Source: Sphaerisporangium krabiense
Lineage (GTDB): Bacteria; Actinomycetota; Actinomycetes; Streptosporangiales; Streptosporangiaceae
NCBI RefSeq assembly: GCF_014200435.1
Contig: NZ_JACHBR010000001.1
Location: 3,937,501-4,001,500 of the forward strand
Length of the DNA stretch: 64,000 nucleotides
Direction: 5' to 3'
Below the pieces are notes generated by a model, which saw only the letters and a program-made list of their open reading frames with translations, ran no database searches and was not told the origin of the DNA. Within the stretch, counting starts at the first letter, position 1; every line of letters starts with the position of its first letter. The position numbers and the translations under genes are program-made. Shown here in pieces: positions 7,388 through 13,554 of this stretch.

Positions 7388-8548
7388 ATGGCATACCTAG
7401 ACCACGCGGCGACCACGCCGATGCTCCCCGAAGCGATCGAGGCGATGACCGCTCAACTCGCGCGGGTCGGAAACGCCTCATCCCTCCACGCCGCCGGACG
7501 CCGCGCGCGCCGGGTCGTCGAAGAGTCGCGCGAGACCGTCGCCGACGCCCTCGGCGCGCGGCCCAGCGAGGTCGTCTTCACCTCGGGCGGCACCGAGGCC
7601 GACAACCTCGCCATCAAGGGCCTCTACTGGGCCCGCCACATCGCCCGCGGCGCCCATCGCATCCTGATCAGCGCCGTCGAGCACCACGCCGCCCTCGACC
7701 CCGCGCACTGGCTCGGCGAACGGCAGGACGCCGTGATCGAGTCGCTGGAGGTCGACGAGCACGGCCGCGTCCATCCGGACACGCTGCGCGCGGCCGTCGA
7801 ACGCGACCCCGGCGGCGTGGCGCTGGTCAGCGTCATGTGGGCCAACAACGAGGTCGGCACCGTCCAGCCGGTCGCCGAACTGGCCGCCATCGCCGCCGGG
7901 CACGGCATCCCGTTCCACACCGACGCCGTGCAGGCCGTCGGGCAGCTCCCGGTGTCCTTCGCCGCCTCGGGCGCCCAGGCGCTGGCCCTGTCCGGGCACA
8001 AGCTGGGCGGCCCCATGGGCGTGGGCGCGCTGCTGCTGGCCAGGGGGACCGACCCCGTCCCCGTGCTGCACGGCGGCGGCCAGGAGCGCGACGTGCGCTC
8101 CGGCACGCTCGACGCCCCCGCCATCGCCGGTTTCGCCGCCGCCGTGCGCGCGGCCGTGGACCACCGCGAGGAGCACGCCGCGCGGCTGACCGCCCTGCGC
8201 GACGAGCTGATCGCCCGGGTCAGGACGGCCGTCCCCGACGTGATCCTCAACGGCCACCCCGAGGACCGCCTGCCCGGCAACGCGCACTTCTCCTTCCCCG
8301 GCTGCGAGGGCGACGCGCTGCTGATGCTGCTCGACGCCAAGGGCGTGGAGTGCTCCACCGGCTCGGCCTGCTCCGCCGGCGTCGCCCAGCCCTCCCATGT
8401 CCTCCTCGCCATGGGCGCCGACGCCACCCGCGCCCGCGGCTCCCTCCGCTTCTCCCTCGGCCACACCTCCACCCGCGCCGACATCGACGCCTTGCTCGCC
8501 GTCCTCCCCGGCGCCGTCGAACGCGCCCGGCGGGCCGGGGTGTCCTAG
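7388..8548 (+). CDS. Cysteine desulfurase (NifS/IscS type)
   Basis: PLP enzyme of 386 residues that takes sulfur from L-cysteine as an enzyme persulfide. Visible motifs: [11 protein letters not shown] at the N-terminus, [15 protein letters not shown] near 60, HTDAVQAVG near 178, the PLP lysine in LSGHKLGGP near 202 and the persulfide cysteine in STGSACSAG near 322. mnmA lies 4 kb downstream on the same strand; in actinobacteria such an enzyme commonly supplies the sulfur for MnmA. The ATG follows GAAGGGG. The divergent TetR operator 28 bp upstream suggests regulated expression, which is unusual for a housekeeping sulfur donor. Confidence 0.93.
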
Positions 8549-8564: not shown

Positions 8565-9506
8565 TCAGGAGGGGGGAACGGTCACGCCGAGGGCCCTGGC
8601 GATCCAGTGGTGGGCGATCGTCTCGGGTGGAGGCCAGGGGGTGCCGTTGATGACGGCCACCAGGCGCCACTGGTGTTCGGCGCGGGGGTCGTGTTCCTCG
8701 TAGCCGCGTGCCAGCGTGCGGCGTAGTTCGGGGCCGTCCTCGGCTCCGTGCATCCGCGCGAGGAGGGCCACCACCCGGTCGAGGACGGGGGCCGCCTCGG
8801 GTGTGCCGGGCTCGACGCCCTCGGCGATGGCGGCCCGCACCACCGCGACGACGGCGGCGTTCGTCTCCTGCCACCCCTTCGCGTCGAAGCCGCCTTCGCG
8901 CCGGTCCCAGTAATCCTCGCTCTGCCGGCGCAGCGCGGTGCGGTAGTCGTCGTCGGAGAGCAGGTCGACCAGTTCCAGCCAGGCGTCGAGCTGTTCGATG
9001 GTCGGCTCGGGCGGCAGTTCGGGCATCATCGCCTCGCGCAGGCACGTCAGCCACTGCTCGCGCGCGCCGACGCCGCCGCCGACCTCGGCCACGAACGAGT
9101 CCAGCAGCGCGTCCCGCTCGGCGGCGCCGATGCGGCCCAGGGTGTTCAGCCTGCGCAGGTCCTCCTCGGAGGGGTCGCCGCGCTCCAGCGTCGCCCGTAG
9201 CACGGCGCGGGTGCGCTGGAGGCTCTTGAGCTGGGACTCCACGGTGCGCAGGTGCAGGTCGAGCACCTGGCGGAGATCGCGCTCGCCCAGGGAGCGGATC
9301 GTGGCGAGGCCGACGCCGATCTCGCGCAGCGTGCGGACGAGTTCGAGGCGCGCGACGTCGGCCTCGCCGTACAGGCGGTAGCCGGCGGGGGTGCGGTCGC
9401 GCTCCGGCAGGACTCCGGCGTCGGAGTAGAAGCGGATGGTCTTGACGGGCAGGCCGGACAGCCGTGAGAGCTGGCCGATCGTGTACGTGTCAGGCGGCCT
9501 GGTCAT
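8565..9506 (-). CDS. MerR-family regulator with large C-terminal domain
   Basis: 313 residues. The N-terminal MerR winged HTH reads YTIGQLSRLSGLPVKTIRFYSDAGVLPERDRTP in two parts with the usual RFY and GYRLYG signatures. A dimerisation helix (about 75-110) follows, then a roughly 190-residue helical domain rich in W and E that resembles effector domains of drug-sensing MerR proteins such as the TipAS/BltR type. That resemblance is impressionistic. The start at 9506 lies seven bases after AATAAT on the minus strand, so it is probably leaderless. The gene is divergent from an L11 paralogue, and the intergenic DNA carries a MerR-type promoter. The likely job is to activate the L11 copy on an antibiotic signal. 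Confidence 0.85.
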   Translation of the reverse strand: MTRPPDTYTIGQLSRLSGLPVKTIRFYSDAGVLPERDRTPAGYRLYGEADVARLELVRTLREIGVGLATIRSLGERDLRQVLDLHLRTVESQLKSLQRTRAVLRATLERGDPSEEDLRRLNTLGRIGAAERDALLDSFVAEVGGGVGAREQWLTCLREAMMPELPPEPTIEQLDAWLELVDLLSDDDYRTALRRQSEDYWDRREGGFDAKGWQETNAAVVAVVRAAIAEGVEPGTPEAAPVLDRVVALLARMHGAEDGPELRRTLARGYEEHDPRAEHQWRLVAVINGTPWPPPETIAHHWIARALGVTVPPS

Positions 9507-9519
9507 ACGCCCGATTATT

Positions 9520-9554
9520 CCAGTTGAGCCTCCAGTAACTGGACACTTTACGGT
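9520..9554 (+). promoter_or_regulatory. MerR-type 19-bp-spacer promoter for L11 paralogue
   Basis: TTGAGC at 9524-9529 and TACGGT at 9549-9554 are 19 bp apart, the over-long spacing that MerR activators correct by distorting DNA. Inside the spacer is the 13-bp palindrome TCCAGTAACTGGA (9531-9543), and a wider dyad CCAGTT-N11-AACTGG spans 9520-9542. The ATG of the L11 gene begins eight bases after the -10, so the transcript would be leaderless. Confidence 0.75.
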
Positions 9555-9561
9555 TTCCGAC

Positions 9562-9987
9562 ATGGCGAAGAACAAGGTCACCAGAGTCGTGAAACTGCAG
9601 GTCAGGGCGGGGGAGGCCAGTCCCGCGACGGTCGGGAAGGACCTGGGGCCGCTCGGCATCAACCTGATGGACTTCTGCCGCAGGTACAACGCCGAGACCG
9701 AGGGCCGGCGGGGCTTCGTGGTCCCCGCCGAGATCACCGTGTACGAGGACCGCTCGTTCGACCTCGTCACCAAGATGCCCACCACGGCCTCGCTGCTGCG
9801 CCACGCCGCGGGCCTCCAGGCGGGCAGCCCCCGCCCCGGCCATCAGGACGCCGGGTCGATCACCCGCGAGGCGCTCCGCGAGGTGGCCCGCACGAAGATG
9901 CCCGACCTGAACACCACCGACCTCGCCCAGGCCGAGAAGATCATCGCGGGCACCGCACGCTCGATGGGCCTGGTGATCAAGGACTGA
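9562..9987 (+). CDS. Ribosomal protein L11 paralogue lacking the thiopeptide-contact prolines
   Basis: 141 residues, the normal length of L11. The C-terminal rRNA-binding domain is well kept (ARTKMPDLN, EKIIAGTARSMG), so it should bind the GTPase-centre RNA. The N-terminal domain departs from the norm: where bacterial L11 has a P-S-P-P-V-G-P-A-L-G stretch, this protein reads P-A-T-V-G-K-D-L-G, one residue shorter. It has lost the Pro pair (E. coli 22/23) and the Pro at 26, the region thiostrepton-type antibiotics contact and where resistance mutations arise. The housekeeping rplK normally lies with rplA near nusG/secE, which is not here, so this is very likely a second copy. It is under MerR control and has no ribosome site. 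A resistance L11 is the likeliest role. Confidence 0.88.
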   Translation: MAKNKVTRVVKLQVRAGEASPATVGKDLGPLGINLMDFCRRYNAETEGRRGFVVPAEITVYEDRSFDLVTKMPTTASLLRHAAGLQAGSPRPGHQDAGSITREALREVARTKMPDLNTTDLAQAEKIIAGTARSMGLVIKD

Positions 9988-11602: not shown

Positions 11603-11665
11603 GTGTTCTAGCGTGGCATTGAAGTGCTTGTGGAGACTTCGTGGTGGATATCGAGGAGTTTTCCC

Positions 11666-12412
11666 GTGTCAGGTCGCCAATCGCATGGCATGCGCACCGT
11701 CGATGTCGCACGGCGTGCCGGGTGCTCCGTGCAACAGGTGCGCAATCTGGAGCGCGACGGCGTGCTGCCGCCGGCGGCGCGCACCGGCGCGGGCTACCGG
11801 GTCTACGGGGAGATACACCTGCGGTCCGCGCTGGCCTACCGCGCCCTGGCGGCGGGCGCGGGTCCGGCCGAGGCCAAGAAGATCGTCCGGACCGCTCATG
11901 GGTTCCCCGCCTCGGAGGTGCTCGCCCTCCTCGACGCGGCGCACGCCCGGCTCGACGCGGAACGCACGGAACTCCGGCAGGCCAGGCAGGCCGTCCAGGC
12001 GATCTCCGGCGAGCCGGTCGACGACGTGCGCGCCTCGGACGCGATGAGCGTCTCCGAACTCGCCGCCGCGCTCGGTGTGCGCCCGTCGACGCTGCGGCAC
12101 TGGGACGCGGAGGACCTCGTCGTCCCGGACCGCGACCCCGTCCGGGGGACGCGACGCTACACACCGGCCCAGGTGCGGGACGCCCGGATCGTTCACCAGC
12201 TCCGCAGGGCCGGTTACCGCATCGCACCGCTCCGGGCCCTGATGCCGGAGCTACGCCGCGCCCGCCGGCTGGACGAGGTCGCCACCGCGCTGGCCGCCAG
12301 AGACGCCGGCATCGCGGCGCGCTCCCAAGCCCTCCTCGACGGCGCCGCCGCGCTCAGCGCCGTGCTCACCCTGACAGCCCACGACGCCGCCGCCGCGCCC
12401 CATGGGGAGTGA
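11666..12412 (+). CDS. MerR-like regulator with two tandem HTH domains
   Basis: 248 residues, with two MerR-type winged helices in one chain. The first is [26 protein letters not shown] at the N-terminus, with [10 protein letters not shown] after it. The second is [26 protein letters not shown] near 124, with [23 protein letters not shown] after it. A helical linker joins them and a short helix ends the protein. A monomer could therefore read both half-sites of an operator. GTG 11666 is chosen because GAGGAG lies seven bases upstream; ATG 11690 is an alternative. The gene ends 71 nt before mnmA on the same strand. Confidence 0.8.
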
Positions 12413-12483
12413 GCCGGTCTTCGGCCGGAGGCCGTGCGCGGATACCCGAGGGGGGTCGTGGGCAGGGTAATCTCGGGAGTGTT

Positions 12484-13554
12484 ATGAGTCTTCGTGTGCT
12501 TGCCGCCATGTCCGGCGGCGTCGACTCCGCGGTGGCCGCGGCCCGGATCGCCGAGGCCGGGTACGACGTCACCGGGGTTCACCTGGCGCTCTCGTCGAAC
12601 CCCAAGTCGTACCGCACCGGCGCGCGCGGCTGCTGCACGCTGGAGGACTCCCGCGACGCCCGCCGGGCCGCCGACGTCATCGGCATCCCCTTCTACGTCT
12701 GGGACATGGCCGAGCGGTTCCACCGCGACGTCGTCGAGGACTTCGTCAGCGAGTACGCCGCGGGCCGCACCCCGAATCCCTGTCTGCGCTGCAACGAGAA
12801 GATCAAGTTCGAGGCCGTGCTCGACCGGGCGCTGGCCCTCGGCTTCGACGCGGTCGCCACCGGCCACCACGCCCGCCTGGAGGACGGGGTGCTGCGCCGG
12901 AGCGTCGACGCGGGCAAGGACCAGTCGTACGTCCTCGGCGTGCTGACGCGCGACCAGCTCTCCCACGCGATCTTCCCGCTGGGCGGCTCCACCAAGGCGC
13001 AGGTGCGTGAGGAGGCCGCCGCCCGCGGCCTGACCGTGGCCGACAAGCCCGACAGCCACGACATCTGCTTCATCGCCGACGGCGACACCCGCGGCTTCCT
13101 GGCCGAGCGGCTCGGCGCCGAGCGCGGCCCGATCGTGGACGAGACCGGTGCGGTCCTCGGCACCCACGAGGGCGCGTACGGCTACACGATCGGCCAGCGC
13201 AAGGGCCTGCGGCTGGACCGCCCGACCTCCGACGGCCGCCCGAGGTACGTGCTGTCCATCGAGCCGGTGTCCAACACGGTCACCGTGGGCCCGCGCGAGT
13301 CGCTGGCCGTGCGGGCGATCGTGGCCGAGCGCCCGATCTTCAACGGGCCGGTGGGGGAGCCGCACGAGCCGCTGGCCTGCCAGGTCCAGCTCCGCGCGCA
13401 CGGCGAGGTGTACGGCTGCCGCGTCCAGCTCTCCGGCGGCGTCCTGCACATCGCGCTGGACTCCCCGGCGACCGGCGTGGCGGCGGGTCAGGCGGCCGTC
13501 CTCTACAGCGGGGACACCGTCCTCGGCTCCGCCACCATCACCTCGTCGTCCTGA
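12484..13554 (+). CDS. mnmA: tRNA 2-thiouridylase MnmA
   Basis: 356 residues. Thiolates U34 of tRNAs for Lys, Glu and Gln using ATP and a protein persulfide. PP-loop [16 protein letters not shown] at residue 8, nucleophile cysteine in [11 protein letters not shown] near 97 and the second catalytic cysteine in [16 protein letters not shown] near 195, followed by the IGQRKGL domain and a C-terminal beta-barrel. The ATG at 12484 is chosen by homology; the same frame is open far upstream. The cysteine desulfurase at 7.4 kb is the probable sulfur donor. Confidence 0.95.

Follow-up and report, generated by a model that had tools for sequence, protein, structure and literature searches.

A second ribosomal protein L11 with an altered thiopeptide-contact loop, encoded divergently from a MerR-family regulator: a candidate inducible resistance module in Sphaerisporangium and its relatives

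In the 64,000-nucleotide stretch of the Sphaerisporangium krabiense genome analysed here (the window), we found a second gene for ribosomal protein L11 (L11p), which lacks the di-proline contacted by thiopeptides and lies divergent from the gene of a MerR-family regulator. The gene, its loop change, its promoter and operator, the regulator and the conservation of all of these are directly observed (Table 1). The best explanation, to which we give a probability of about 0.72, is a thiopeptide-inducible resistance module that replaces the drug target. The initial annotation had likewise proposed an inducible ribosome-swap module, and this inference gains support from the regulator's effector domain, whose best structural matches are TipAS and AlbA, from a promoter and dyad shared in Bacilli, and from the presumed precedent of L11 proteins in thiopeptide producers.

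Table 1. Features of the MerR–L11p locus (window coordinates)
Feature	Position	Strand	Basis
MerR-family regulator, 313 aa: helix-turn-helix (HTH) plus helical effector domain (~aa 110-313)	8568..9506	-	domain scan, fold search
MerR-type promoter: TTGAGC (9524-9529), 19-bp spacer, TACGGT (9549-9554)	9524..9554	+	sequence
Palindromic operator TCCAGTAACTGGA within the spacer	9531..9543		sequence; kept across loci
Second ribosomal protein L11 (L11p), 141 aa, without the thiopeptide-contact di-proline	9562..9987	+	domain matches, alignments
Altered contact loop ASPATVGKDLGPLG, codons 19-32, one residue shorter than rplK	9616..9657	+	alignments, codon count

The L11p reading frame exceeds the cut-offs of both Pfam domains (Ribosomal_L11_N, 75.8 bits; Ribosomal_L11, 79.5 bits) and matches the NCBIfam equivalog L11_bact (160.3 bits against a cut-off of 141.85). 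Its C-terminal half, which binds ribosomal RNA (rRNA), is well preserved in the alignments, as expected of the full-length paralogue with an intact rRNA-binding half that had been described at the outset. The 8.5-Mb genome has two L11 genes, where the initial annotation had stated beforehand that a single one would speak against its proposal; the housekeeping rplK, sought near nusG and rplA, was found between them (C1:769022-769441) and shares 54% identity with L11p. The presence of two diverged genes rules out a housekeeping gene or an assembly duplicate. A plasmid or phage gene was also rejected: the tblastn matches, from 78 records of plasmids and 19 of phages, all had less than 60% identity at their best place. 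The nearest named relatives of the genome are Sphaerisporangium, and among the matches listed the nearest protein (98% identity) comes from S. siamense. L11p is under purifying selection, with ratios of nonsynonymous to synonymous substitution (dN/dS) of 0.08-0.23 in 15 pairs from 6 genus members, as compared to 0.02-0.16 for their housekeeping rplK.

In the contact loop, L11p reads ASPA-TVGKDLGP where the cell's own rplK reads ATPAPPVGTALGP and E. coli L11 reads ANPSPPVGPALGQ, so that the Pro pair is gone and one residue is deleted, as had been claimed. The further claim that the next proline is lost does not hold relative to the cell's own ribosome: at the third-proline site (E. coli 25/26), where E. 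coli has Pro, this genome's rplK already carries Thr and L11p carries Lys, and therefore only the Pro pair counts as a change from the native protein. Thr at this site is also seen in the native L11 of the aligned actinomycetes and in TclQ, an L11 of thiopeptide clusters. The interdomain linker of L11p is changed from PPAP to PTTA.

L11p is present in 6 of the 11 genomes of the genus and in 19 of 200 genomes of a family sample. The L11p clade was found in 33 of 345 genomes of an order sample, 341 of which belong to the window's family, and all 33 carriers are members of that family, spread over 10 genera. A score gap sets L11p apart, at 227 bits or more versus ~201 at most for other L11 matches. 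Seven family genomes (G017, G043, G069, G070, G129, G133, G182) have two L11 matches each outside the clade, which may reflect further paralogues, split genes or genes of clusters.

We read the loci of 31 of the 33 carriers (all except G245 and G248). A divergent MerR gene lies 23 to 55 bp from L11p in 30 of the 31, including two (G335, G238) where it was matched in pieces only, and in the exception, G001, the orthologue is ~21 kb away on the same contig. Any of seven tested flanking genes was found in just 3 of 25 named actinobacterial loci, all three of them from Sphaerisporangium, where the pair is inverted relative to its DUF695 neighbour. The rarity of kept flanking genes and the inversion indicate that the MerR–L11p pair is a conserved unit. 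Decay was seen as well: G004 (L020), a further member of the genus beyond the six carriers, retains an L11p remnant of the first 27 residues with a CTG start, next to a kept promoter and an open MerR gene. In G010 (L138) and G006 (L140), MerR orthologues with 71% and 68% identity have an operator-like palindrome in front, and no L11p gene was found in these two genomes, where the sensor may have outlived its target.

The window locus combines a MerR HTH with a 19-bp-spacer promoter carrying a dyad, and the TTGA-n2-19 bp-TA-n3-T pattern recurs in all 31 loci, which bears out the promoter type first assigned here. A search of the 8.5-Mb genome with the operator pattern gave a single exact match and one further site at three mismatches, and a reversed control pattern gave none. 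The L11p ATG starts 7 nt past the -10 box, and its messenger RNA is thus probably leaderless. The start codon is 6 or 7 nt past the box in 28 of the 31 loci; in the other three (L022, L024, L029), whose starts came from the alignment, the sequence shows an ATG in frame 7 nt past the box. This spacing predicts a leaderless L11p message in the actinobacterial loci.

The divergent regulator does have the large effector-type domain that had been noted. A fold search with the whole protein was swamped by HTH matches, and the effector domain was therefore searched alone; its best structural matches are the drug-binding domains of TipAS and AlbA. The TipAS domain PF07739 scores 14.4 bits in the window regulator, below the Pfam cut-off of 23.8, and a TipAS assignment was obtained neither by hhalign nor by a profile search of solved structures. 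Because the cut-off is not reached, the likeness to TipAS and AlbA is suggestive only. One close homologue, P0128, carries a precomputed PF07739 domain. Ten of the 11 genus genomes have further MerR proteins, 1-3 each, with 34-42% identity over near-full length, which form a family of likely sensors.

A similar L11 occurs in Bacilli. We scanned 84,980 species genomes with two strict peptide patterns, so that the counts are a lower bound, and obtained at least 35 loci. Of these, 25 hold actinobacterial paralogues and 8 hold full-length paralogues of the Bacilli type; the other two are a fragment from an actinobacterium and a truncated copy from Shouchella. The full-length Bacilli-type genes come from Paenibacillus, Evansella and Shouchella, plus a record labelled Roseburia. 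Six aligned Bacilli proteins read ANPA-[RK]VGKDLA, with the same one-residue deletion, and a second, rplK-like L11 is present in all 8 Bacilli carrier genomes searched (that of L087 not included; the paralogue of G352 is truncated). Of the 9 Bacilli L11p genes read, 8 (two are identical) follow a promoter with a 19-bp spacer and an ACGT-n-ACGT-like dyad; the truncated copy is the exception. In L095 (Shouchella rhizosphaerae), L11p is decayed and the frame stops after ~49 residues.

In all 8 Bacilli genomes, the best TipAS regulator gene shares the promoter type and the dyad with L11p, and in two Paenibacillus genomes a TipAS regulator lies upstream of L11p (TipAS E values of 1.5e-40 and 2.6e-39). 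Based on neighbourhood and shared operators, this is the strongest link of this type of L11 to drug sensing. The actinobacterial and Bacilli groups may have a single origin or may have converged. In a 45-row tree with all columns, the actinobacterial and Bacilli paralogues each fall near their own phylum (65/93), and a 33-row tree joins them weakly (47/35). When the loop columns are dropped, the actinobacterial paralogues group with actinobacterial rplK (97/90), and a single clade of both paralogue groups is not rejected (approximately unbiased test, p-AU 0.185).

We infer the ligand, the induction, the incorporation into ribosomes and the resistance from these features. In the uninduced cell, the MerR regulator would occupy the intergenic operator and hold the 19-bp-spacer promoter off. 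A thiopeptide of the L11–23S rRNA cleft, such as thiostrepton, micrococcin or nosiheptide, would enter and bind the TipAS/AlbA-like effector domain; the drug-bound regulator would remodel the promoter in MerR fashion, and L11p would be made. With its rRNA-binding half intact, L11p would replace housekeeping L11 in new 50S subunits, and the resulting ribosomes would lack the shelf of prolines that supports the drug. The thiopeptide site is described as lying between the L11 N-terminal domain and helices 43/44 of 23S rRNA (PMC7136475), and the L11 changes P22S, P23L and G25V are reported to raise thiopeptide tolerance (PMC9769715).

The link in Bacilli is qualified by two observations: the dyad is also found near second TipAS genes (L122, L124, L125), and of 14 control genomes 3 encode TipAS proteins, including B. 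subtilis. Against the reported tolerance changes, according to a review, thiostrepton binding is reportedly not stopped by L11 mutations (PMC3917276).

L11p could instead build a stress ribosome that alters the dialogue with translation factors or with the (p)ppGpp synthetase, giving a relaxed, relC-like state in which a drug is incidental or absent. Relaxed L11 mutants are known, and inducible control would suit a stress role equally. The thiopeptide site on L11 is also reported to overlap with where IF2, EF-G and EF-Tu bind (PMC7136475). However, the regulators belong to the drug-binding type or look like it, and the altered residues are those whose mutation gives thiopeptide tolerance, so we regard this alternative as unlikely.

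A second alternative is that L11p protects a thiopeptide producer from its own product, in the manner of TclQ and TclT of the thiocillin and micrococcin clusters. L11 paralogues do sit in such clusters, in micrococcin-type clusters of pBac115 and a Staphylococcus hominis plasmid and, as reported, in a B. cereus thiopeptide cluster (PMC10704990), and rplK is one of the core genes flagged by a footprinting study in organisms that make inhibitors of protein synthesis (PMC9290621). Moreover, Nonomuraea jiangxiensis is described as making GE2270 congeners, and a strain of this species has the MerR–L11p pair (L078); the target of GE2270, however, is EF-Tu, not L11. The TclQ proteins of the two plasmid clusters keep the di-proline (APPVGT) and stand apart in the tree from the L11p clade (100/99), which excludes L11p as a TclQ relative. 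L11 was seen on 12 Staphylococcus plasmids, with 53.9-55.6% identity to Paenibacillus L11p; the one inspected of the twelve is the S. hominis plasmid just named, from S34-1, which has a thiopeptide cluster beside it.

YcaO is required in thiopeptide assembly. A YcaO gene of any kind is present in 28 of the 33 actinobacterial carriers and in 3 of the 8 from Bacilli. YcaO was not found in the remaining 5 actinobacterial carriers (four 99-100% complete; G102, 78%) or in 5 Bacilli carriers, one of which has a truncated L11p only. In none of the 33 actinobacterial carriers was a YcaO gene found on the L11p contig at less than 140 kb from L11p, although draft contigs may hide some; the nearest on the same contig is ~144 kb away, in the S. 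krabiense genome itself and outside the window. The domain scan found no gene of thiopeptide-cluster kind among the neighbours between about 5 and 13 kb of the window. With 10 of 41 carriers lacking YcaO, producer immunity does not explain the family. Self-immunity cannot be its general purpose, and we consider this origin of L11p quite improbable. Least probable is a regulator that senses another compound, with L11p guarding the GTPase-associated centre against some other inhibitor: related domains are reported to accept different drugs, TipAS binding thiopeptides and AlbA albicidin (PMC6078987), whereas thiopeptides are the inhibitors described as resting between 23S rRNA and the N-terminal domain of L11 (PMC7136475).

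A broader proposal is somewhat less likely than a coin toss. TipA-kind sensors, at least in these lineages, might exist to switch ribosomes, and modules of sensor plus replacement L11 might have arisen in two phyla, possibly independently and with the same loop deletion, including in bacteria unable to make thiopeptides. The leaderless actinobacterial message might then be translated even when the drug blocks IF2-dependent initiation.

The surroundings of the pair were also recorded. The gene at 7388-8548 has an Aminotran_5 domain and is presumably cysteine desulfurase-like, and the gene at ~12480-13554 is one that we take to be mnmA-like. Between them lie the MerR–L11p pair, DUF695 and DUF6194 genes and a regulator gene (11624-12412) whose product contains two MerR HTH stretches.

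If target replacement upon induction is correct, the arrival of a thiopeptide would probably lead the carriers to assemble resistant ribosomes. Bacteria would then offer a clear natural example of a ribosomal protein being exchanged when needed to escape an antibiotic, and soil bacteria would seem to keep resistance to this drug class in reserve as an inducible gene. Among the open-licence PMC papers listed, we found no description of a regulator-controlled L11 paralogue outside producers.

Among known systems, TclQ and TclT of the thiocillin and micrococcin P1 clusters are similar in that a second L11 presumably takes the place of the native protein and makes the cell immune to thiopeptides. 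They differ in their place within a biosynthetic cluster, in the retained di-proline and in their separate lineage; TclQ has Thr where native Bacilli L11 has the next Pro, and this P-to-T change is described as its resistance change. Mta of Bacillus subtilis and its relatives are likewise TipAS-type MerR regulators in Bacilli, and some Bacilli carriers have proteins of this type with the same dyad. The known targets of Mta are efflux genes. AlbA, a structural match to the effector domain of the regulator, is described with a 221-aa effector domain of two TipAS-like halves; it binds albicidin and protects by drug binding, and its description mentions no target-replacement gene (PMC6078987).

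The closest parallel in sensing is TipA (TipAL/TipAS) of Streptomyces lividans, a MerR-family protein with a drug-binding C-terminal domain that activates its own expression and occurs in non-producers (PMC6078987, PMC2893106). TipA has long been known as a thiostrepton sensor, with a 1989 reference cited (PMC3917276, PMC6078987), and a 2010 paper called its role unclear, many non-producers carrying it (PMC2893106). The window regulator has a larger effector domain that is only TipAS-like, and it faces an L11 gene, whereas the output named for TipA in these accounts is TipA itself. A TipA-type sensor wired to an L11 altered at the drug site would give such sensors a concrete and testable purpose.
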